Assembly (NCBI GenBank): GCA_005878685.1 | Contig: VBLN01000073.1 | Coordinates: 1 to 13,077, forward strand | DNA from: Deltaproteobacteria bacterium | GTDB lineage: Bacteria; Desulfobacterota; Binatia; UBA9968 | DNA length: 13,077 bases | Reading direction: 5' to 3' | Shown here: piece after piece, positions 1 through 11,940 of the stretch | Layout of the letters: every line of letters starts with the position of its first letter | Numbering within the stretch: the first letter of the stretch is position 1 | The notes under the pieces: generated by a model | What the model saw: the letters and a program-made list of their open reading frames with translations, nothing else | Told to the model about the DNA's origin: nothing | Databases searched by the model: none | Made by a program: the position numbers and the translations under genes

Positions 1-557
1 CCGAATATCGGAGCATTCTTTTTACGAAACGGGATAGCGGAACAGCCCGCCTCGAAGATTTTCGGGGCAAGATCATCGCCTTCGAGGATCCTGGCTCGAC
101 TTCAGGCTATTTTCTTCCGAAGGTCTTGTTGCTGAGAAAAGGATTTAAGCTTTCGGAAAAGCCCTCGCTCCAAGCCAAGGTCGCTCCCAAGGAGGTCGGC
201 TATATCTTCGTCCATACAGACGGAAATATCGTCAACATGGTTCTCTCGAATCAGGTGGCGGCTGGAGCGATCAGCAATGATGACTACGCCACGCTTGATG
301 AGAAGAAAAGAGCGGACATCACCGTCCTGGCGGAAACGGAGACGTTTCCTCGCCACCTCGTCTCGATTCGGAAGGATTTTCCTCCGGCGTTGACGGAGCG
401 ACTTAAGGAGACTCTCCTCGCAATGGATCAAAACGAAGAGGGGCGGAGAATCTTGCAAAAGACCGACAACACCACGAAGTTTGATCTTCTGCCCGGCGGC
501 GAAGAGGCCGTCCGGCGAAAGCTGATAGAACTGTTTCGGCCTCGCCCAAAAAGATAG
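1..557 (+). CDS. PhnD-like phosphonate/phosphate ABC transporter substrate-binding protein, 5'-truncated by window edge
   Basis: The frame is open from base 3 to a TAG at 555-557, so only the C-terminal ~184 residues are present. The segment FEDPGSTSGYFLPK (about 30 residues in) matches the ligand-pocket motif of PhnD/PtxB-type periplasmic binding proteins, whose D-P-x-S-T-S-G-Y loop contacts the anion. The later part (VGYIFVHTDGNIVNMV, then a helix with FPRHLVSIRKDFPP) follows the family pattern in which the second lobe ends with a short 'L..m...eeGr.il' helix. Family knowledge predicts an exported or lipid-anchored receptor for phosphonate, phosphite or phosphate. The signal peptide lies outside the window. 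The next gene starts 10 nt downstream, so the two are probably cotranscribed. That next gene is a nucleotidyl cyclase rather than an ABC ATPase or permease, so the receptor may serve sensing rather than transport. The ligand is not determinable. Confidence 0.85.
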   Translation, partial: EYRSILFTKRDSGTARLEDFRGKIIAFEDPGSTSGYFLPKVLLLRKGFKLSEKPSLQAKVAPKEVGYIFVHTDGNIVNMVLSNQVAAGAISNDDYATLDEKKRADITVLAETETFPRHLVSIRKDFPPALTERLKETLLAMDQNEEGRRILQKTDNTTKFDLLPGGEEAVRRKLIELFRPRPKR

Positions 558-567
558 AATCTCTTAC

Positions 568-1329
568 ATGAAAAAACTTCTTGTCGCCATCCGGCAGCTC
601 GTGGGTGGCGCGCGGATTGCGCGGTTTTTCTACCGCAGCCTTCCCTCCGCGAAGCGGTGTAAAGAGTGTATGGTGCCGTTCTTGGGAATATTTTCCATTC
701 CCTTTCGTTTCCTGCAGATCCGCCCTTCACGCAAGAACCCGAATCTCTGCACGCTCTGATACGAGCTTGCTCCCCCGGGCGGGGAGACGCGGGTCATCTC
801 CGTCATGTTTGTGGACATTCGAGGTTTTACCGCTTTGGCAGAGAAATCGGCTCCGCGTGAGGTAGCTGATCGGCTGAGCCACTTCTACCGGCTGGCGACG
901 AACGCTATCTTTCGTTACGATGGCACCTTGGACAAACTGGTAGGGGATCAAGTTATGGCGTTTTTCGGCGCTCCTGTTCAGTGGCACGACCACCCGCAGC
1001 GAGCCGTGCGGACAGCTGTGGAAATCATGCGGGGAGTCTCGGAGTTGGCGGACGAAGACGCCTTAAAGGTGGGCGCCGCCGTCGCTACCGGCGAGGCTTT
1101 CGTTGGCAATGTCGGCGAAGGCGCGGTCAAGGACTTCACCGTCCTGGGCGATACCGTCAACGTCGCTGCGCGGCTCCAAGGCGCTGCCGCTCCCGGGGAA
1201 ATTCTTCTCACCGAAGAGACTTATGCCGCTGTCGAGCCTCAGTTTCCCGCCGCGCCGCGGAGAGAACTGGAACTCAAAGGAAAGAGCGAACCGGTGGTCG
1301 CCCGAGTGATCGTTGGAAGGCGCGCCTAA
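568..1329 (+). CDS. Class III adenylate/guanylate cyclase with N-terminal four-Cys module; in-frame TGA at codon 64 (possible selenoprotein)
   Basis: Read through one TGA (757-759), the frame gives 253 residues. Residues 1-30 are basic/amphipathic (RQLVGGARIARFFYRSLP). A knuckle-like module follows: C31-x-x-C34, then PSRKNPNL-C61-T-L-(TGA 64). It continues through APPGGE into a class III cyclase domain (about 76-245). Catalytic residues look complete: metal-binding D83 (FVDIRGFT) and D127 (KLVGDQVMAFF), K123 and D195 (LGDTVN) for adenine preference, and N198 and R202 (NVAARL) for the transition state. The predicted product is cAMP. From memory, relatives carry Cys at position 64, giving CxxC...CxxC. 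No ATG, GTG or TTG lies between the TGA and ATG 805, and starting at 805 would remove the first core strand. Upstream SD is weak. Alternatives to recoding are a nonsense mutation or a sequencing error. The 3' end converges with the next gene, 8 nt away. Confidence 0.8.
757..786 (+). promoter_or_regulatory. In-frame TGA plus downstream stem-loop, candidate bacterial SECIS
   Basis: The TGA at 757-759 stands where the cyclase family has its fourth Cys codon. Downstream, CTCCCC (770-775) pairs with GGGGAG (781-786), six consecutive Watson-Crick pairs, closing a 5-nt loop CGGGC (776-780). The loop begins 16 nt after the TGA. Bacterial SECIS elements lie inside the reading frame just 3' of UGA, with the apical loop roughly 16-37 nt away and a G in the first two loop positions; both conditions are met here, the spacing only at its lower limit. 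Caveat: the hairpin falls on the codons for PPGGE, a conserved family segment whose GC-rich codons are naturally self-complementary, so it could exist without any recoding role. No selenocysteine machinery is visible in the window. Confidence 0.35.
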
Positions 1330-2716: not shown

Positions 2717-2889
2717 GGGGTACTCCAGATCCTTATCTTTGCGGGTCTATGGATATCGTCGGCTATCCACGTTGACATATCTACACTAGATCGGTTACTC
2801 TCGCCACCAGTCAAGATAAGTCAGAATTTGAAAAGGTGAACTGCTTTCTGCAGTACTTGTTAGAATCGCGCGGGAGATGATTTTTAACT
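2717..2889. promoter_or_regulatory. Divergent intergenic region, weak promoter-like elements
   Basis: 173 nt separate the leftward Dph6-type gene from the rightward cNMP-binding gene, so promoters for both should lie here. On the plus strand TAGAAT (2861-2866) is a fair -10 box but has no good -35 at 16-18 nt. TTGACA (2772-2777) is a perfect -35 hexamer but has only a poor -10 (TACTCT, 18-nt spacer). TGGATA and TATCCA (2750-2755 and 2764-2769) form a short 6-bp hairpin in the 5' leader of the leftward gene. No TGTGA-N6-TCACA CRP-type site was found. Confidence 0.3.
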
Positions 2890-3456
2890 GTGCCTTCTAT
2901 GGCTAAGCGGCGCTGGCTCGAACGTCTAAGGGATTCTGAACAGCTACGGCGGCTTCAGCTCCTCGAGAATGTCCCGCTCTTTGCCGGTCTGAATCGAAGG
3001 CAGCTCGGCAAGCTTCTAGTCAAATTGTTTGAAAGGGAGTACCGGACGAGCGAGACGATCTTCGTGCAAGGGGAGCCCGGCAAAGCGCTGTTTATTCTCC
3101 TCGCAGGGAGAGTATTGATCTGTCGCACCGGCCATCGCGCAGAAGAACCACTCGCAACAGTGACCGCAGGGGGCTATTTCGGAGAGCTGGCGCTCATCGA
3201 CGATCAACCGCGCTTTGCCAGCGCCCGAGCTGAGGAGCCGTCGGTGCTGCTGATTTTGTATAAGAGTGATTTTGACGATCTCATAGAGGGTCACAGAGTG
3301 ATCGCAATCAAAGTGATGGGTAATCTTTTGAAGACTCTTGCTGGGTATGTTCGCAAGGCTCAGCCTCAAGGGTCCGGCCGCGCCGCCATGATGAGCGGAC
3401 CTACCACCGCGAAAGATAGAACCGCCGTGGCTTCGGAAAGGGCTTCGCGTGACTGA
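2890..3456 (+). CDS. Stand-alone cyclic nucleotide-binding domain protein
   Basis: 188 residues from GTG 2890; an in-frame ATG at 2899 is an equally plausible start and the SD is poor for both. One Crp-type beta-roll (about 27-125) is followed by the C-helix (about 125-155) and a polar, low-complexity tail. VPLFAGLNRRQLGKLL is the usual N-terminal helix and GEPGKALFILLAGRV the first beta-hairpin. FGELALIDDQPRFASARA (98-113) is the phosphate-binding cassette, with E99 for the ribose 2'-OH and R108 for the cyclic phosphate both present, so cAMP or cGMP binding is likely. There is no helix-turn-helix, kinase or channel segment, so it is not a transcription factor by itself. Its 3' end overlaps the next gene by 8 nt, implying translational coupling and perhaps physical partnership with that membrane protein. 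Confidence 0.85.
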   Translation: MPSMAKRRWLERLRDSEQLRRLQLLENVPLFAGLNRRQLGKLLVKLFEREYRTSETIFVQGEPGKALFILLAGRVLICRTGHRAEEPLATVTAGGYFGELALIDDQPRFASARAEEPSVLLILYKSDFDDLIEGHRVIAIKVMGNLLKTLAGYVRKAQPQGSGRAAMMSGPTTAKDRTAVASERASRD

Positions 3457-4588
3457 AGAGCGGACTGCCGAGAGCTCGGGGCAATCCGGTCGCGCACAAT
3501 CGATCGCACCGCCACCGTCCATCATCTGGGCGCTGGCGATTGCGCTTGTGGCTCTGATCGTCTATGTCTCGCGTGACTTCGTGCTGCTCCTCTTTCTGTC
3601 AGGGACGGTCGCGTATTTTGTCAACCCCATAGTCAAAGTTGCCGAGAGCGCTCTGATCAAACGCAGCATAGCGGTCACGGTCATCTATCTGGGGATTGGC
3701 CTTAGCCTCTTGGCTACGGCCTACTTCCTCTTTCCCCGTCTACGTACCGAAGTTAACGCTCTTTCCAGCAGCTTGCCCTTCTTCGGCGACCGGCTAGACG
3801 AAGCGATCGATGCCCTTCAGAATGAGATCGTCTCGCGCTACCCCGCCGCAGATCGATTATTTACGCCCCGTGAGGTTCGCAACGACAAGTTGAATCAATT
3901 TATTGAGCAACAGGCCACTAATTTTCCCGGTCTAGTCAGCCATCTGGTATCGCTGGTGCTCGCGGGAGTCTTGGTCCCCTTTTTCTCATACTTTTTTCTA
4001 CGCGATAGCCGCAAGATCGTTCACTTCGTGCTCGATCGCCTGCCAGCCAGCCATATTGAGACTTCGGTTGCGGTTTGGTGCGAGATCGACCGCATCGTCG
4101 GTCAGTACCTCCGTGGCTTGGCCATAGAAGGCATGGTGATCGGGGTGGTCGCGGCATCAGGCCTTTGGATGCTCGGGATCAATTACCCGCTGCTGCTCGG
4201 TGTCTTGTCGGGCGTAGCCAATGTGGTGCCCTATCTCGGCCCGATTCTCGGGGGTACCGCAGCCCTCTTAGTGACCCTTGTCCAATTCAAAAGCCTTACG
4301 CCCCTTGCGCAGGTCTTCATTCTCTATCTTTCCTTGAAACTGCTCGACATCACGGTGGTGCAGCCGATGGCTGTCGGCCGGGGCAAAGAGTTACATCCAG
4401 TGCTCCTCATCGCATCGGTCATCGTAGGGGGTCATGCCCTGGGAATCGTCGGCATGGTTATCGCGGTTCCGACGATTACCATCCTTCAAAAGATCGCAAA
4501 GCTGCTGCTTGAGCGTCGGCGCTATTCTACCCAGACGGCGGAGAATCGTCTGAGCACCCATGTTCAGACGCAGCCGTACGTGTGTTGA
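3449..4588 (+). CDS. AI-2E family transporter (TqsA/PerM/YdiK-like membrane protein)
   Basis: 379 residues, within the family's usual 340-380. The start is GTG 3449, inside the upstream gene, with no better candidate nearby. Hydrophobic segments begin around residue 25 (SIIWALAIALVALIVYVS), followed by SGTVAYFVNPIV, a family motif. A soluble insertion (about 105-155) is followed by further membrane segments, with EIDRIVGQYLRGLAIEGMVIG and GVANVVPYLGPILGG at the expected places. The C-terminal signature VVQPMAVGRGKELHPVLL with VGGHALGIVGMVIAVP (about 302-341) identifies the AI-2E exporter-like family. Members have been implicated in autoinducer-2 export, Na+/H+ antiport or small-molecule efflux, so the substrate stays open. 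The 8-nt overlap with a cNMP-binding-domain gene suggests transport regulated by a cyclic nucleotide (inference). Confidence 0.9.
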   Translation: MTEERTAESSGQSGRAQSIAPPPSIIWALAIALVALIVYVSRDFVLLLFLSGTVAYFVNPIVKVAESALIKRSIAVTVIYLGIGLSLLATAYFLFPRLRTEVNALSSSLPFFGDRLDEAIDALQNEIVSRYPAADRLFTPREVRNDKLNQFIEQQATNFPGLVSHLVSLVLAGVLVPFFSYFFLRDSRKIVHFVLDRLPASHIETSVAVWCEIDRIVGQYLRGLAIEGMVIGVVAASGLWMLGINYPLLLGVLSGVANVVPYLGPILGGTAALLVTLVQFKSLTPLAQVFILYLSLKLLDITVVQPMAVGRGKELHPVLLIASVIVGGHALGIVGMVIAVPTITILQKIAKLLLERRRYSTQTAENRLSTHVQTQPYVC

Positions 4589-4716: not shown

Positions 4717-4765
4717 CTCACTGTGAAAAGTTTTCCGAAACATTGGAGTTTGGAGAGGTACAACT

Positions 4766-5767
4766 ATGAGAATGCGCATGATGAGTAAGCTTGCCGCTTT
4801 GACTAGTTTCGGTGTGGCGTTGCTGATGCCCGGCTTGGGAAACGCCCAAATGACAAAGATCAAAATGGGCTCCTCCTTGAGCCCGCCATCGCTCGATTCG
4901 ATTACGCCTTATGTCGCGATTGAGAAAGGCATCTTCAAAAAGTACGGCTTCGATGTCGAAGTCGTAGAGTTCCGCGGCGATGCGACGCATGTCAAGGCCC
5001 TGCTGTCGGGCGACATCGATCTCTCGATCAACATGGGCGCCACCGAGGGGATCGTAAGCGCTTCAAAAAAGGCGCCGATCCGGCTCTGGGTGGTTACGAA
5101 TCCGATCACTCCCTATCACTTCGTAGCAAGGAGAGAGGCCGGCACGACGCTCCAGGCGCTCGTCGGAAAGAACGTAGCTGTGTCCGGGCTCGGTGCGATT
5201 TCGTACCATATCCCGCGCATCGTGCTGGAGCGGAGCGGAGTGGACCCGGAGAAATTGAAATACGTCGCCGTCGGCTCGCCCGCGGACCGGTTCAAGGCGC
5301 TGGTAGCGGGCAAGGTCGACGCGACTGTGGTGACGAACACGGAGGCCGCCAAGCTGGCTAGTTATCCGGACATCGTCGATCTGGTCGACGTTCCCAAGGT
5401 CGTTCCAGAGATCCCCTACGAGTTCGGCATGGTGAGAGAAGATTACCTGCAGAAAAATGCTGACACGCTCTACAAACTGACTAAAGCCATCATTGAATCC
5501 AATCGATGGATCGCCGCCAACAAGGCGGGAACTATTGAGGTTGCCAAGAAGATCCTGCCAGAGGAAAACCCGGAGACGCTGAGCAAGGCCTTCGACATGG
5601 CCGACGCGCGTCTATGGGGCGTCAATGGGGATATCTCGGAGGCCTCGTATAAATTCACCGTAGAGTTCCTCAAGAAGGTCGGTTACCTGGAAACACCGGT
5701 GCCTTACGATAAGTTCTTTGACCGGCGCTTTGTCGATCGGGCATTGAAAGAGTTAGGCCGGAAGTAA
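4766..5767 (+). CDS. NitT/TauT-type (SsuA/THI5-like) ABC transporter substrate-binding protein
   Basis: 333 residues. The Sec signal peptide spans residues 1-27 (MRMRMMSK, then a hydrophobic run ending GLGNA). The mature protein starts with MTKIKMGSSLSPPSLDSITP. The typical NMT1/SsuA layout follows: PYVAIEKGIFKKYGFDVEVV (first strand-helix, residues ~49-68), GDATHVKALLSGDIDLSINM, then FKALVAGKVDATVVTN in the second lobe and a helical C terminus. SsuA/TauA/NrtA/ThiY relatives bind small anions or nitrogen/sulfur organics; no residue set I recognise fixes the ligand. ATG 4766 is chosen for its SD, although ATG codons at residues 3, 5 and 6 are possible. It is the first gene after the strong promoter and is followed by a 58-nt hairpin repeat before the ATPase gene, an arrangement expected to favour abundant binding protein over membrane parts. 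Confidence 0.88.
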   Translation: MRMRMMSKLAALTSFGVALLMPGLGNAQMTKIKMGSSLSPPSLDSITPYVAIEKGIFKKYGFDVEVVEFRGDATHVKALLSGDIDLSINMGATEGIVSASKKAPIRLWVVTNPITPYHFVARREAGTTLQALVGKNVAVSGLGAISYHIPRIVLERSGVDPEKLKYVAVGSPADRFKALVAGKVDATVVTNTEAAKLASYPDIVDLVDVPKVVPEIPYEFGMVREDYLQKNADTLYKLTKAIIESNRWIAANKAGTIEVAKKILPEENPETLSKAFDMADARLWGVNGDISEASYKFTVEFLKKVGYLETPVPYDKFFDRRFVDRALKELGRK

Positions 5768-5772
5768 TCGTC

Positions 5773-5830
5773 CGTGTTCGTGATCGTGATTCGTGTTCGT
5801 CACGAGCACGGGCAACGAGCACGACTCACG
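5773..5830. repeat. Intergenic imperfect hairpin repeat, copy 1
   Basis: Six nt after the binding-protein stop, the left arm (5773-5800; CGTGTTCGTG, ATCGTGATTC...) folds on the right arm (5801-5830; CACGAGCACG ... GACTCACG). The apical part 5792-5798/5804-5810 gives seven pairs including one G:U. Lower stems pair 5779-5782 with 5820-5823 and 5773-5776 with 5827-5830. The 10-mers CGTGTTCGTG and CACGAGCACG recur at 11943-12002, so this is a dispersed element, REP-like in placement. It ends 7 nt before the ATPase start codon and occupies the place where an SD would be; none is visible. Confidence 0.7.
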
Positions 5831-5837
5831 TTAAAGT

Positions 5838-6599
5838 ATGCTTGAGGTCCGGCATCTCAGCAAAGTCTTCTTCGAGCAGAACGATTCACGAAAGCCCGGA
5901 CTGGTAGCGCTCTATGATATCTGTCTCACGGTTCGAAAGAAGGAATTCGTCTGCCTTCTAGGGCCGAGCGGCTGCGGCAAGACGACTTTGATCCGGATCG
6001 TTGCTGGACTTTTGCCGGCGGATCGGGGCGAGGTGCTGGTCAACGGCAATCCGGTCACGAGCCCGGGGAGGGATCGCTGCATGGTGTTTCAGCAGTTCGG
6101 TTTGCTCCCGTGGCGCACCGTCCTGGGCAATGTGGAATTTGGGCTGGAGATCGAAGGAGTTCCTCGGGAGGAGCGCCGGGACATTTCCCGCAAATACCTG
6201 GAGCTAGTCGGCCTCAACGGTTTCGAGGACTACTATCCGCATCAGATCTCCGGCGGAATGCAGCAGCGTGTCGGGATCGCCCGCGCACTGTCAAAGAAGC
6301 CCGACATCCTGCTGATGGACGAACCCTTTGGCGCGGTGGATGCGCAGACGCGCGAGCAGCTGCAAGAGGAGTTGCTCAAGATTTGGGCCAAGACCGACAC
6401 CACAGTGATCTTCGTCACCCACAGCATCGATGAGTCGATCTATCTCTCGGACCGAGTCGTGGTCATGCATTCCCGTCCCGGACGCATCAAAGAAGAGGTG
6501 TTGGTGGATCTTCCGCGACCCCGGTGGGAGGGAGACGTCAAGGCAGATCCGCGCTTCGCCCGGCTCCGCACTGACATCCGTGAATCCCTTCGAGGGTAG
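5838..6599 (+). CDS. NitT/TauT-type ABC transporter ATP-binding protein (SsuB/TauB-like)
   Basis: 253 residues with all nucleotide-binding motifs: Walker A GPSGCGKTT (42-50), Q-loop Q85 (VFQQFGLLPW), ABC signature ISGGMQQRVGIARA (137-150), Walker B with catalytic Glu DILLMDEP (156-163, E162), D-loop GAVDAQ and switch His H195 (FVTHSIDES). The FGLLPWRTVLGNVEFGLE segment is typical of the nitrate/sulfonate/taurine import subfamily. The protein energises import through the two downstream permeases at the inner membrane face. ATG 5838 fits the family N terminus (MLEVRHLSKVF) but has no SD; it directly follows the hairpin repeat, so translation may be weak or coupled. Its stop (TAG 6599) is 2 nt before the first permease start. 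Confidence 0.93.
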   Translation: MLEVRHLSKVFFEQNDSRKPGLVALYDICLTVRKKEFVCLLGPSGCGKTTLIRIVAGLLPADRGEVLVNGNPVTSPGRDRCMVFQQFGLLPWRTVLGNVEFGLEIEGVPREERRDISRKYLELVGLNGFEDYYPHQISGGMQQRVGIARALSKKPDILLMDEPFGAVDAQTREQLQEELLKIWAKTDTTVIFVTHSIDESIYLSDRVVVMHSRPGRIKEEVLVDLPRPRWEGDVKADPRFARLRTDIRESLRG

Positions 6600-6601
6600 G
6601 C

Positions 6602-7429
6602 ATGGCGGTCTCACTGGACGAGCAGCTCATCCAAGAGTTGGCGCTTCGGCGCGAGCAGCGGTGGTCGCTCTACGACCATCCAAACTTGATTCGGGCAGGC
6701 TCCGTCATGATCTTTTTGATCTTGTGGGAATTCTACGGCCGCCGCGTTGATCCGCTCCTGCTCACGTATCCTACCGCCGTTGCCTGGGCGGCCGTACAGT
6801 TGATCTGGTCGGGCGAACTCATCCGGCAGCTGCTCGTAAGCCTGGGCTCGCTCGCCGCTGGGTTCGGCGCCTCGCTTCTTCTGGGGGTCGGCTTGGGAGT
6901 AGCCATGGGCCGGTCGCGCCTCGCTGAGGCGATTTTGGATCCTCATGTCAACGCTCTCTATGCTACGCCCCAGGTCGCCCTCATACCGCTTCTCATGATG
7001 TGGTTCGGCCTGGGATTTGGAGTCAAGGTGGTGGTCATCTTCCTCTTTGTTTTTTTTCCCATACTCATCAACACGGTAAGCGGCGTGAAGAACGTCAGTG
7101 CGTCGATGGTGGAGGTGGGACGGGCTTATTTGGCTTCGGAGCGACAGATTCTTTTCAAAGTAGTTTTTCCCGCAGCCGTTCCCTTCATCATGGCCGGCGT
7201 GCGGCTGGCTGTGGGACGGGGTCTGGTCGGAATGATCGTGGCCGAACTCTTCACCGCGATCACCGGACTTGGGGCGATGCTGACTCTCTACGGGAATCTC
7301 TTCGAGACTGCCCGGATGTTTGTGGTGATCATCGTCCTCGGCCTCTTGGGTATAGGACTCATCCAGGCCACGCAGATGCTGGAAAGACGGATGGCCCGCT
7401 GGAAGGAGACGGAACGTGCCGTCAATTGA
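6602..7429 (+). CDS. NitT/TauT-type ABC transporter permease, first paralog
   Basis: 275 residues, usual length for SsuC/TauC-type subunits. After a ~35-residue cytoplasmic N terminus come about six membrane segments, beginning AGSVMIFLILWEFYG and continuing through ASLLLGVGLGVAMG, VALIPLLMMWFGLG and VVVIFLFVFFPIL. The EAA coupling loop is VEVGRAYLASERQILFKVVF with VPFIMAGVRLAVGRG after it (about residues 177-210), the contact with the ATPase. The start ATG 6602 follows the ATPase stop with a GAGGG-type SD inside that gene's last codons, so the genes are translationally coupled. It is strongly similar to the next gene along its whole length, consistent with an in-operon duplication and a heteromeric pore. 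Confidence 0.92.
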   Translation: MAVSLDEQLIQELALRREQRWSLYDHPNLIRAGSVMIFLILWEFYGRRVDPLLLTYPTAVAWAAVQLIWSGELIRQLLVSLGSLAAGFGASLLLGVGLGVAMGRSRLAEAILDPHVNALYATPQVALIPLLMMWFGLGFGVKVVVIFLFVFFPILINTVSGVKNVSASMVEVGRAYLASERQILFKVVFPAAVPFIMAGVRLAVGRGLVGMIVAELFTAITGLGAMLTLYGNLFETARMFVVIIVLGLLGIGLIQATQMLERRMARWKETERAVN

Positions 7430-7498
7430 GAGCTGTCTTCCTCCCGGTAAGGGGCGCCGCCCGTGGTGTGAACTCGATGGCAGGAAGGTCAATCGGCA

Positions 7499-8320
7499 TT
7501 GAATGCATTGGAAGAGCAAGCCTTAGCGGAGATTAGCCTGTCGCCGTCAAAAGGCTTTCGCGTGACCGACTACCTGGGTTTGCTGCGCGCAAGCTCAGTA
7601 ATCCTCTTGCTGATTGTTTGGGAGGTTTTCGGCCGCGACGTCAATCCACTTTTCCTCTCTTATCCGACTGCTATCGCCCGCGCATGCGTGCAGCTCCTGA
7701 TCTCAGGGGAATTCCAACGTCAGGCGCTCGGAAGCCTCGAAGTCTATGCGGTCGGATTAGTTTCGTCCTTGGTGCTCGGCATCTTCTTGGGACTTCTCAT
7801 GGGGCGCTACCGGCTGGCCGAGTATCTGTTGGACCCCTACGTCTACGCCCTTGATGCGACTCCTCGAGTGGCGCTCATCCCTTTGCTTTTGCTTTGGTTC
7901 GGGCTCGGTGCTCCGGCTAAGATCGCGATCGTTTTTCTCAGCGGTCTCTTTCCTGTGCTCATGAACACGTTCAGCGGCGTCCGGACCGTGAGTGCGAGCC
8001 TCGTGGATATCGGGCGAGTCTATGGCGCAGGAGAAGCCAAGATCTTTACGAAAATCATTGTACCGGCCGCCCTCCCTTTTATCATGGCAGGGGTGCGGTT
8101 AGCCGTGGGGCGGGCGCTCATAGGGATCATCACGGCAGAGATGTTCACTGCAGTGACAGGGATGGGGGCGCTGCTCATTCGCTACTCCAGCGCCTTTGCG
8201 ACAGATAAGTTTTTCGTCCCAGTCATTTTTCTCGCCCTGCTCGGGGTGATCCTCAGCAGGGCCGTTGAGCTTTTGCAGAGGCGTCTGGCGCCATGGAAAG
8301 AGACCGAAGGGGCTCTTTGA
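7499..8320 (+). CDS. NitT/TauT-type ABC transporter permease, second paralog (TTG start)
   Basis: 273 residues. The predicted start is TTG 7499 with SD AGGAAGG (7482-7488); an in-frame TGA at 7469-7471 and the absence of ATG or GTG before the first homologous residues leave TTG 7499 (or TTG 7508) as the only starts. NALEEQALAE aligns with the start of the upstream permease, and the rest matches segment by segment: VWEVFGRDVNPLFLSYPTAI, VALIPLLLLWFGLG, GVRTVSASLVDIGRVYGAGE (EAA loop), LPFIMAGVRLAVGRALIG. Six membrane helices are expected. A 69-nt gap separates it from the first permease. Usual SsuABC/TauABC importers need only one permease gene (homodimer), so this pair probably forms a heterodimer. 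The 3' end overlaps a possible early start (8293) of the oxidoreductase gene. Confidence 0.9.
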   Translation: MNALEEQALAEISLSPSKGFRVTDYLGLLRASSVILLLIVWEVFGRDVNPLFLSYPTAIARACVQLLISGEFQRQALGSLEVYAVGLVSSLVLGIFLGLLMGRYRLAEYLLDPYVYALDATPRVALIPLLLLWFGLGAPAKIAIVFLSGLFPVLMNTFSGVRTVSASLVDIGRVYGAGEAKIFTKIIVPAALPFIMAGVRLAVGRALIGIITAEMFTAVTGMGALLIRYSSAFATDKFFVPVIFLALLGVILSRAVELLQRRLAPWKETEGAL

Positions 8321-8355
8321 CGGTCGTGGTTCGACGTAAGGTGGGAAAAATTTTT

Positions 8356-9456
8356 GTGGCTGAACAAGAAAAGGGCAGTATTTTTCCGATCGACTGCCTG
8401 AAAGATTTCTCGGCCAAGGTCTTCATGCATTTCGGCATAGCGGAAGTTGATGCCAGACAGGCTGCGGACGTGTTGGCCAAGAGCGACTTGAGAGGCATCG
8501 ACTCCCACGGCGTGGCGCGGCTGCATACGTACTTTGACATGCTGACCTTGGGTAGGATCAATCCCAAACCCAATATCAAAATTGTCCGGGAAAAAGTCAG
8601 CGTCGCGACCGTAGACGGAGACAATGGCTTAGGTTTAGTCGTCGGACCGAGAGCGAATGAGATCGCCATGGATAAGGCGGAAAAGTACGGCTCAGGCTGG
8701 GTGAGTGTATGCCACACCAATCATTTTGGCATCGCAGGCTATTATCCCTTAAAGGCAGTGGAGAGAGATCTCATTGGCTGGGCCATGACCAATACGACCA
8801 AGTTGGTGGCGCCTCTGTGGGGAGCGGAGAGAATGCTAGGGACAAATCCCATCGCCATAGCTTTTCCAGGCTACAAAGAGCCTCCCGTCGTGATCGACAT
8901 GGCAACGAGCGCAGTCGCTTACGGGAAGATAGAGATGGCCCTGCGGAAGAAGGCGAAGATTCCACGAGGTTGGGTTGTCGATAAAAACGGTGGTATGACG
9001 ACCGATCCGCAAGACATGATCGACGGAGGCGCTCAGCTTCCTCTGGGTTCTGAAAGAGAGATGGGCGGGCACAAAGGTTATGCGCTTGCCGCGATGGTCG
9101 ATGTCCTGTGCGCGGTTCTCAGCGGCGCCAACTGGGGTCCCTTCGCTCCGCCGTTCGCTCTCAGGCAAGAGATCCCGGCGCGCAGCGTGGGTAAAGGTAT
9201 CGGCCATTTTTTTGGCGCCATGCAAATCGACGGCTTCATCGACAAAGATGAGTTTAAGAAACAGATCGATGAATGGATCCATGTGTTCCGAAAGACGAAG
9301 CCTGCTGCTGGGACGAACGGACCGCTGATCCCCGGCGATCCTGAAAGAGAGGCGGAAGCGATCCGAAGCAAAGAAGGTATCCCTTTACTGAAGCCGGTGG
9401 TGGATGATTTGTTAGATATCTCAAGAAGGACCCGCATCCCCTTCGAGGTAAATTAA
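8356..9456 (+). CDS. Ldh family oxidoreductase (malate/L-lactate dehydrogenase type 2)
   Basis: 366 residues from GTG 8356, chosen because AAGGTGG lies about 11 nt upstream and the family N terminus begins just after. ATG 8293, overlapping the permease by 28 nt, would add 21 atypical residues. Motifs of the NAD(P)-dependent malate/L-lactate/L-sulfolactate dehydrogenase family appear in order: ADVLAKSDLRGIDSHGVARL (proton-relay His in SHGV, about residue 51), WVSVCHTNHFGIAGYY, GTNPIAIAFPG (cofactor loop), VIDMATSAVAYGKI, and MGGHKGYALAAMVDVL. It catalyses reversible oxidation of a 2-hydroxy acid to a 2-oxo acid in the cytoplasm; the exact acid is unknown. Directly downstream of an ABC importer for small anions, it is the natural first catabolic step for an imported hydroxy acid (inference). 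Confidence 0.88.
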   Translation: MAEQEKGSIFPIDCLKDFSAKVFMHFGIAEVDARQAADVLAKSDLRGIDSHGVARLHTYFDMLTLGRINPKPNIKIVREKVSVATVDGDNGLGLVVGPRANEIAMDKAEKYGSGWVSVCHTNHFGIAGYYPLKAVERDLIGWAMTNTTKLVAPLWGAERMLGTNPIAIAFPGYKEPPVVIDMATSAVAYGKIEMALRKKAKIPRGWVVDKNGGMTTDPQDMIDGGAQLPLGSEREMGGHKGYALAAMVDVLCAVLSGANWGPFAPPFALRQEIPARSVGKGIGHFFGAMQIDGFIDKDEFKKQIDEWIHVFRKTKPAAGTNGPLIPGDPEREAEAIRSKEGIPLLKPVVDDLLDISRRTRIPFEVN

Positions 9457-9466
9457 GGAGGCTCCG

Positions 9467-9610
9467 ATGAAGGCGATTCGCATCCATCAATTTGGTCCTA
9501 CGGAAGAGGTCCTTCAGTACGAAGAGGTGCCAACTCCACAACCCGGACCTCAAGAGGTGCTGATAAAAACAGAAGCAGCATCCTTAAACCGGGCCGACCT
9601 GGGCCTCCGC
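9467..9610 (+). pseudogene. 5' remnant of a quinone-oxidoreductase-type MDR dehydrogenase gene
   Basis: A strong SD (TAAGGAGG) precedes ATG 9467. The first ~48 codons read as the conserved N terminus of zinc-independent MDR enzymes (NADPH:quinone reductase type): MKAIRIHQFGPTEEVLQYEE, then VPTPQPGPQEVLIK and EAASLNRADLGLR. Intact members continue for ~280 more residues with a GxGxxG cofactor domain. Here similarity stops at about 9610 and the frame runs on into a binding protein. This is the scar of an internal deletion or recombination that removed the rest of the dehydrogenase and possibly the promoter or start of the next gene. Confidence 0.7.
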
Positions 9611-10807
9611 CCCGCCGATGGAGACCAATCACCCACCCAGAGACAAGATCTCCAAGCTTTTGGCATAGACATCCCCTCCGATCTGGTCCGAAGAAAAATA
9701 CGGCTTTCTCTTGCGGGCGCGCTGCTTGTGATGACATTTCTGGCGGCGCATCCTGCTGGCGCTGGCGAGGCCAAGTCGGCGCCGTGGGAGGGCACCGTGG
9801 CAGAAGCCAGAAGAGAGGGCAGGCTCGTGGTGGGCATCCCTCCCAGCGCCGAACTGAGGAAACAGATGGAACCGCTGTTGAAGTCGCGCTTCGGCCTCGA
9901 GGTCGAGTCCCTCCCGGCGCCCGGCCCGCAAATCGCGAGCAGGATCGTTTCCGAACACAACGCCGGTGTGCGTTACTTCGACGCCCTGATCTTTGGCTCA
10001 TGCACCGGGGTGCCGCTGATTAAGTCCGGCGCGTTCGATCCTGTCGAGCCCTACATGATTCTGCCCGAGGTCAAGGAGCCGACGCTTTGGTGGGGCGGCC
10101 ATGTCTGGATGGACAATGTCAGCGCCAACCGCATCTTCTACTCTTTTGCGGCTATGAAAGGGACGGAAGGCCTTTGGCACAATAGCACGCTGGTGAAGCC
10201 CGAGGATGTCCGCTCGTTCGACGATCTCCTCGACCCGAGATGGAAGGGCAGAATCGGCTTCAGCGACCCGCGCGTCGCCGGCTCGGGTCTGTCCGTGTGG
10301 TCTTTTCTCTGGGACATCAAGGGGGAGGAGTACCTCAAAAAGCTGGTACAACAACAGCTCTTCGTGAGCCAGAACTTGAGGCAGATCGCGGACGCCCTGG
10401 CGAAAGGAAAGCTCGCTATGGCCTTGGGGATCGGCTTTGCGCAAACCGAGCCGTTTGTTAAGGGTGGTCTCCCGGTGAAGGAACTCCCGCAGCCGCGCGA
10501 GGGGCTGCCCGGGAGCAATGGTTATGGCACACTCGGCGTCGTCAAGAATCCTCCCCATCCCCATGCGACGAAGGTGTTCGTCAACTGGCTGCTGAGCAAA
10601 GAGGGGCAGGAGTTCTACAGCAAAGTGATGCTGCAATCCACGAGACGTTTGGATGTGGAGACAAAATGGATGGTGAAAGAGGGAGTGGAGGCGGCGAAGG
10701 ACTTTCTGAGCTTGAGAGAGTACGAGCAACAAAGGAACTATCTGGAGGATAAATGCGTCGGCATCAGGCTGCCCTCGCAAAAATTCGCTGAGACCATTCT
10801 TCAATAA
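9467..10807 (+). CDS. Family 1 (iron/polyamine-type) ABC substrate-binding protein, fused in frame to a truncated MDR N terminus
   Basis: The 446-codon frame has three parts: an MDR-type N terminus (1-48), a junction of no recognisable family (49-72), and an exported binding protein (73-446). The last begins with a signal sequence, VRRKIRLSLAGALLVMTFLA followed by AHPAGAGEA (cleavage near residue 100). It continues with WEGTVAEARREGRLVVGIPP, SFDDLLDPRWKGRIGFSDPR and VKNPPHPHATKVFVNWLLSK, typical of Fe3+/AfuA-like receptors. No ATG, GTG or TTG stands at the natural start; only CTG 9683 (codon 73) would fit, and GTG 9728 or ATG 9731 would cut the signal in half. Either the chimera is translated from ATG 9467, burying the signal peptide, or a non-standard start is used. 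Its cognate permease is likely the gene at 12032. Confidence 0.75.
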   Translation: MKAIRIHQFGPTEEVLQYEEVPTPQPGPQEVLIKTEAASLNRADLGLRPADGDQSPTQRQDLQAFGIDIPSDLVRRKIRLSLAGALLVMTFLAAHPAGAGEAKSAPWEGTVAEARREGRLVVGIPPSAELRKQMEPLLKSRFGLEVESLPAPGPQIASRIVSEHNAGVRYFDALIFGSCTGVPLIKSGAFDPVEPYMILPEVKEPTLWWGGHVWMDNVSANRIFYSFAAMKGTEGLWHNSTLVKPEDVRSFDDLLDPRWKGRIGFSDPRVAGSGLSVWSFLWDIKGEEYLKKLVQQQLFVSQNLRQIADALAKGKLAMALGIGFAQTEPFVKGGLPVKELPQPREGLPGSNGYGTLGVVKNPPHPHATKVFVNWLLSKEGQEFYSKVMLQSTRRLDVETKWMVKEGVEAAKDFLSLREYEQQRNYLEDKCVGIRLPSQKFAETILQ

Positions 10808-10826: not shown

Positions 10827-11940
10827 ATGTCGCGAGAAGAGCAGGTGAGAGATTTGATGGCCGCGTTTCGAAAGACGGCTTACTTCCAATGGATGGAGCG
10901 TCAGAGGATACCCGTCGTTGACGGCTATGGCGTGGAGGATGTGCGGGAAGTGAAGGTGGAATCTTGGCCCCGGATCGGAGGTAAAGCGGCTTTTATCAAT
11001 CTGTACGGGATGGAAGGGGTGACCGGCATGTACGTCGCTGAAGTCCCGGCCGGTGGCGCGCTCGAGCCGGAGAAACATTTTTATGAAAAAGTGATTTGCA
11101 TTCTGAGTGGACAAGGAGCCACGGAAGTGTGGCAGGAAGGCGGCCGCAAGCAGATATTCGAATGGGGACCCTGGAGTCTGTTCGCTCCGCCGCTCAACAC
11201 TTGGCATCGCCTGATCAACGGCGGCCGAGAGCCGGTCAAATTCTTGGCGGTCACGAACGCGCCGCTGATGATGGACGTGCTTCACAACGAGGATTTCGTC
11301 TTTAACTGCCCCTATCTTTTTTCGGACCGCTACTCGGGAGCCGATGGGTTTTTTAACGTCGGACAAAAGCGCTACGAGACGGGCATGCAGCACATCTGGG
11401 AAACCAATTTCATCATGGATATCCAGTCGGCGTCTCTGGACAGGAGCGGGAGTGCGCATCACACAGTTCGAGCTTTCCGGCAATGGCTTGATCGGCCATC
11501 TGGCGCAATGGCCGGCGGGACGGTACCACAAAGCGCACTACCACGGCCCTGGCGCGATTCTGTTGGGCCTGCAGTCGTCCGGATATGTTTTGCTCTGGTC
11601 GAAGGAGCTGGGACTCCGGCCTTACGAAGCGGGTCGCAGCGAGGAGGTGGTAGAAGTGAAATGGAAAGAGGGAAGCGTCTATTGCCCTCCGGGAGGCTGG
11701 TTCCACCAGCATTTCAATACCGGGCCGGGGCCCGCGCGCCATCTGGCGATCCGTTACGGCAGCCGGCTTCACCCCATCGGCTTCAAGATTGCCGACAAGC
11801 GCACTGAAGACGGCGTCTACGTCGGCCTGAAGCGCGGTGGCACGTTGATTGAATATGCCGACGAAGATCCCCAGATCCGGAGACACTACGAAGACGCATT
11901 GACGAAAACCGCGGTACCTTGCCAGATGCCGGCTGTGTAA
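10827..11940 (+). pseudogene. Two-cupin-domain protein interrupted by a frameshift near 11439-11446
   Basis: SD AGGAGGAG lies 7-8 nt before ATG 10827. The first ~205 codons encode cupin 1, with EPEKHFYEKVICILSG (H84, E87) and FAPPLNTWHRLI (H127) as likely metal ligands. Near 11442 the homologous reading continues only in the +1 frame: GAGVRITQFELSGNGLIGHL, then GRYHKAHYHGPGAILLG and VYCPPGGWFHQHFNTG of cupin 2, ending at TAA 11940. Restored length is ~370 residues, as in the soil-bacterial bicupin family I recall. The site CTG GAC AGG AGC fits loss of two bases, since adding GG gives LDRGAGV, which matches the family's R-G-A-G. Without correction the product is a 326-residue protein with a garbage tail, ending at 11807. 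The function is unknown, probably a small-molecule-binding or dioxygenase-like role. Assembly error is possible. Confidence 0.75.

Follow-up and report, generated by a model that had tools for sequence, protein, structure and literature searches.

The gene at positions 568–1329 of the forward strand very likely encodes a selenoprotein. It lies in the window, the 13,077-nucleotide stretch of contig VBLN01000073.1 that was analysed as a whole, and its translation, its match to Pfam family PF00211 and its homologues identify it as a candidate selenocysteine (Sec)-containing class III nucleotidyl cyclase. Incorporation of Sec at the UGA at position 757 is strongly supported by sequence comparison, and the earlier interpretation of this codon as a candidate Sec codon is supported. 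Below, G000 is the genome from which the window comes, and other G codes are relatives in the same class.

The gene and its N-terminal module

With TGA read as Sec, the frame comprises 253 codons and terminates in TAA. Translation confirmed that a single TGA at codon 64 (757–759, forward strand) is its only break. The proposed Sec64 takes the fourth position of an N-terminal module, C31xxC34 ... C61xxU64 (658–759, forward strand), recognised from the sequence and from alignments; the second pair reads C61-T-L-U64 and is led up to by RPSRKNPNLC61. Both pairs are as first described, with the cyclase domain downstream of them. The module lies outside all Pfam, NCBIfam and listed PDB matches, and the AlphaFold prediction is unreliable for residues 1–69, so it could not be used for this part of the protein.

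The catalytic domain (793–1290, forward strand) matches Guanylate_cyc (PF00211) over residues 76–241 with 81.4 bits. It contains Asp83, Lys123, Asp127, Thr191, Asn198 and Arg202, which we take to have the catalytic roles usual for the family, Lys123 and Thr191 being assigned after CyaC. Asp83, Asp127, Asn198 and Arg202 are invariant in an eight-row alignment of the window protein with seven cyclases that do not have the module. The Cys-x-x-Sec pair lies 19 residues ahead of the first catalytic aspartate. Judging from Lys123 and Thr191, the substrate would be ATP, and the product is probably an adenylate cyclase.

If the UGA were a real stop, the locus would produce a short cysteine-containing peptide and a separate cyclase domain starting at an internal ATG. 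Such an ATG exists at 805 and opens an ORF of 174 amino acids under the standard code, which corrects the original prediction in a detail, since that had noted no usable start before the first core strand; this ATG encodes Met80, inside that strand and three residues before Asp83. None of the remaining 27 module sequences aligned has methionine here; they carry Leu, Ile, Val or Phe. The seven module-less cyclases do have Met, a residue included in the pattern by which they were found. Moreover, the homologues with cysteine are continuous across the site, and a genuine stop is very improbable.

TGA and cysteine codons in relatives

A module search of 148 class genomes, run at E 1e-8 and with no more than 40 candidates scored in each, a limit by which some modules may have been missed, yielded at least 27 modules in 20 genomes. 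The original prediction had proposed inspecting position 64 in homologues, and the outcome is a mixture of Cys and UGA: in the 27 aligned class modules, the column that holds the window's TGA contains ten TGA codons from nine genomes, 16 cysteine codons and one phenylalanine codon. The TGA takes the place of the fourth cysteine of the module, as the original prediction had stated. The TGA genes belong to G000 (two genes), G001, G003, G009, G015, G016, G101, G102 and G524; a TGA in the identical column in eight other genomes and in a second gene of G000 is more than expected by chance. A protein search of 145 relatives found close homologues with exactly one TGA in at least seven other genomes, besides the second G000 gene, and among the matches listed there were nine with an internal stop, each with exactly one TGA.

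The phenylalanine is found in G136 (locus L117), which groups with the form of Sinorhizobium meliloti, and indicates that the residue at the Sec/Cys position can be lost. The S. meliloti protein itself (WP_164820690.1), from outside the class, has Cys at the site (two plasmid records translated, 660 matching). G024 was considered as a further TGA gene and rejected: its site codon is TGC, the flagged TGA lying 20 codons further on, so that we grouped it with the Cys genes. Clade B has Asp at the position of the second cysteine, its first pair reading CxxD, and retains C-x-x-U. The second Sec-type cyclase of G000 (contig C492, locus L049, about 2763–3458) belongs to this clade; the gene upstream of it encodes a protein resembling NMT1-type binding proteins, 27.7% identical to the product of 4727–5764 in the window.

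A sample of 395 genomes drawn evenly from the phylum, in each of which no more than 15 candidates were scored, gave whole-module matches, among the matches listed, in G075 and two in G000. Of 28 loci from outside the class, the 25 read (all but L088, L095 and L099) have no CxxC or CxxU before the core strand. A protein scan of genome contigs, which relies on short exact patterns and from which near genomes may be missing, returned seven relatives that match from residue 71 or later, with no module upstream.

Phylogeny and selection

The tree was calculated from 27 rows, without G024 and with S. meliloti included. It places the TGA rows in four groups, one of them the lone G102 on a long branch and of unsure placement. 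Four changes of the TGA label are needed, three of which are forced by well-supported branches.

Apart from the TGA, the frames of the ten TGA genes, in nine genomes, run uninterrupted through the cyclase domain. Coding sequence is conserved, and under selection, both before and after the TGA. For pairs of TGA genes within clades (n = 10), dN after the TGA is 0.14–0.33 and dS 0.67 or more, one pair being saturated, which indicates purifying selection and bears out the earlier statement that the sequence downstream shows no decay. These data weigh against the explanation that the TGA is a nonsense mutation in a pseudogene, or a cysteine codon miscalled through sequencing error. TGA is one base away from TGC and TGT, and at least one further frame, that of selB, is broken in this assembly; but the same column is TGA in ten otherwise open genes of nine genomes, and selection has continued to act after it. 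The recurrence, in other species and in intact genes under selection rather than in one assembly, largely refutes mutation or error, making it exceedingly improbable.

Selenocysteine machinery

The original prediction had asked for the Sec machinery in the parent genome, and most of it is present: selA, selB and selD share one contig of G000 and are all named by NCBIfam, and tRNA-Sec was not found. The selD gene (TIGR00476, 385.9 bits) itself contains an in-frame TGA, which falls in a GUxxK motif. The selB gene (locus L018, 2243–4154, contig C197) is split into two overlapping frames, both matching TIGR00475; the eight remaining TGA genomes each have it as a single frame of 640–721 codons.

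SelA and SelB are present in all nine TGA genomes. A tRNA-Sec of at least 66 bits was found in six of them (G003, G009, G015, G016, G101 and G102), with anticodon TCA in both genomes checked, G003 and G015. It was not detected in the assemblies of G000 (80.6% complete, 507 contigs) and G001 (880 contigs); the best match in G524 (about 380 contigs) scores 50.8 bits, over the Rfam cut-off, and is called tRNA-Ser by ARAGORN. SelA is over the cut-off in 122 of the 145 relatives of the class, and since the machinery is this common, its co-occurrence with the TGA genes is weak evidence when taken alone. A search for Fdh-alpha gave eight matches, none of them over the cut-off.

The three genomes in which tRNA-Sec was not found could speak for reading of the UGA as another residue, by a near-cognate tRNA such as that for Trp, or for a leaky stop, without Sec. 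Against this, the site alternates with Cys and not with Trp, and SelA and SelB accompany the TGA gene in every case. TGA is also an ordinary terminator here: internal stops are absent from nine further Pfam-supported genes of the window, three of which terminate in TGA, and TGA likewise closes the cyclase frames themselves in at least G009a, G015a and G016a. We consider readthrough without Sec very improbable.

A predicted hairpin downstream of the TGA codon

A SECIS-like hairpin, CUCCCC-CGGGC-GGGGAG, is predicted by folding at 770–786 (forward strand), in a stretch whose codons are more strongly conserved in clade A than the protein requires; its apical loop starts 16 nucleotides after the TGA. 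When loops starting 13–22 nucleotides after the codon are considered, a range chosen after the folds had been inspected, the best hairpin has −7.5 to −13.2 kcal/mol in all ten TGA genes, versus 0 to −7.2 kcal/mol in all 18 non-TGA genes. The P value for this difference, 7.6e-6, overstates its significance because the genes compared are related. The loops of the ten TGA genes begin 14–19 nucleotides after the codon. With a wider loop range, one non-TGA gene, G024 (−9.0), overlaps the TGA genes. In G009a and G015a the top-scoring hairpin starts at nucleotide 7 and is not the CUCCUC/GGGGAG stem.

Synonymous shuffles gave a combined P of 5e-4 for the TGA genes and of 0.48 for the others, in both cases from genes that are not independent; individually, two of the ten TGA genes (G003a and G000b) and the non-TGA gene G002 have P below 0.05. 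The codons following the TGA show conservation in excess of that of the protein in clade A (nine codons, 0.87 versus 0.47; no permutation out of 20,000 as high) and likewise in clade C (ten codons, 0.80 versus 0.39, P 0.012). Clade B has no such excess (0.54 versus 0.61, P 0.74), and the covariation of its one stem pair (AU, GU, GC) is no better than in shuffles (323 of 500 as high). The clade A stem has no two-sided change and hence no covariation. A published generic bSECIS model was discarded as too loose: it fits 193 of 420 background positions and 14 of the 18 non-TGA genes as well as seven of the ten TGA genes. Taken together, the RNA signal in hairpin and codons gives moderate support for Sec decoding.

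Gene neighbourhood

The upstream neighbour (3–557, forward strand), cut by the start of the contig, encodes a phosphonate-type ABC substrate-binding protein (PF12974, 115.9 bits) and is separated from the cyclase gene by 10 nucleotides; homologues of it are also found upstream in G016, in two copies. The order common to the window and G016 is substrate-binding protein, Sec cyclase, isochorismatase, Diphthami_syn_2, cyclic-nucleotide-binding protein and AI-2E transporter. A Cys-type cyclase comes next in G016, and the window has none. On contig C36 of G016 (locus L052, about 5362–10596) the Sec-type and Cys-type cyclases are some 4 kb apart, with the genes for the cyclic-nucleotide-binding protein and the AI-2E transporter between them. 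The genes adjoining the cyclase in G009 and G015 differ from this order. The protein with a cyclic-nucleotide-binding domain (2890–3456, forward strand; PF00027, 76.5 bits) is a possible and plausible effector of the cyclase.

Further downstream, the window contains an ORF at 9467–10807 with two weak resemblances, both below the cut-off: that of residues 1–48 to the beginning of a PIG3-type quinone oxidoreductase, and that of residues 202–400 to phosphonate ABC binding proteins. It appears to be a remnant that has been fused in frame. The ORF at 10827–11940 is weakly cupin-like (26.9 bits, just below the Pfam cut-off). The ORF at 11344–11940 overlaps it and seems to continue it in another frame, and neither of the two is named by NCBIfam.

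Proposed mechanism

In the mechanism that we propose, UGA757 would be decoded as Sec by SelA, SelB, SelD and tRNA-Sec, aided by the mRNA hairpin just downstream. The product would be a soluble class III cyclase with a short N-terminal Cys/Sec module, in which the Cys61–Sec64 pair, either alone or in a metal site with Cys31 and Cys34, may switch the cyclase by redox. The cAMP output would then track the redox state and, via UGA decoding, the selenium supply. Whether the pair acts as a redox-sensitive switch is about evenly balanced.

The alternative in which Sec is inserted and the module serves a structural role or binds metal, and is not a redox switch, is a serious one, if somewhat short of an even chance. 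The spacing of CxxC...CxxC is akin to that of metal knuckles, FmdB is zinc-ribbon-like, and the Asp at the second Cys position of clade B is a possible ligand. A Sec form of FmdB (UxxU) appears among the families in the available part of a 2026 review (PMC13188914), and this also counts for a metal or structural role. According to the same part of that review, Sec usually marks redox sites, which counts against it, as does clade B in keeping C-x-x-U yet losing a cysteine of the first pair. The redox and metal roles are not separated by the evidence. The combined proposal, a Sec-dependent adenylate cyclase gated by Cys–Sec redox, with selenium-dependent synthesis and at least three Cys/Sec changes within the class, may be right or wrong with equal probability.

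Comparison with known systems

If confirmed, a Sec-containing cyclase would represent a novel type of selenoprotein and bring selenium into cyclic-nucleotide signalling. The natural Cys and Sec forms would make up a set for testing what Sec gives a sensor. Ordinary ORF calling overlooks the Sec cyclase, the standard code yielding just the truncated cyclase ORF. We did not find a Sec-containing cyclase in the literature searched, the coverage of which leaves out most subscription journals, and the word "cyclase" does not occur in the main text of PMC13188914, PMC12013277 and PMC9312934. In its available part, the first of these names more than 110 prokaryotic selenoprotein families and describes prokaryotic selenoproteins as mainly metabolic and redox proteins. 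The known CxxU selenoproteins covered there resemble the window gene in the CxxU motif, the Cys homologues, SelA and SelB, and the predicted hairpin after the UGA.

The window protein has the metal-binding Asp pair and the Asn/Arg pair in common with class III adenylate and guanylate cyclases (PF00211; CyaB, PDB entry 3r5g, and 1wc1), but adds the N-terminal Cys/Sec module, which none of the 60 PDB sequences listed covers. Four-Cys cyclases (S. meliloti WP_164820690.1, G075, G139 and G006) have the same CxxC...NPNxCxxC module followed by a cyclase domain, with Cys at the site where the window protein has Sec; those of the G006/G008 group have a longer, hydrophobic C-terminal part. CyaC of S. 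meliloti is described, in the available part of PMC10463352, as a redox-responsive adenylate cyclase whose cAMP output follows the redox state, as we propose for the window protein. Unlike the window protein, CyaC is membrane-bound and tied to respiratory quinones, and the two are likened by description, not by sequence.
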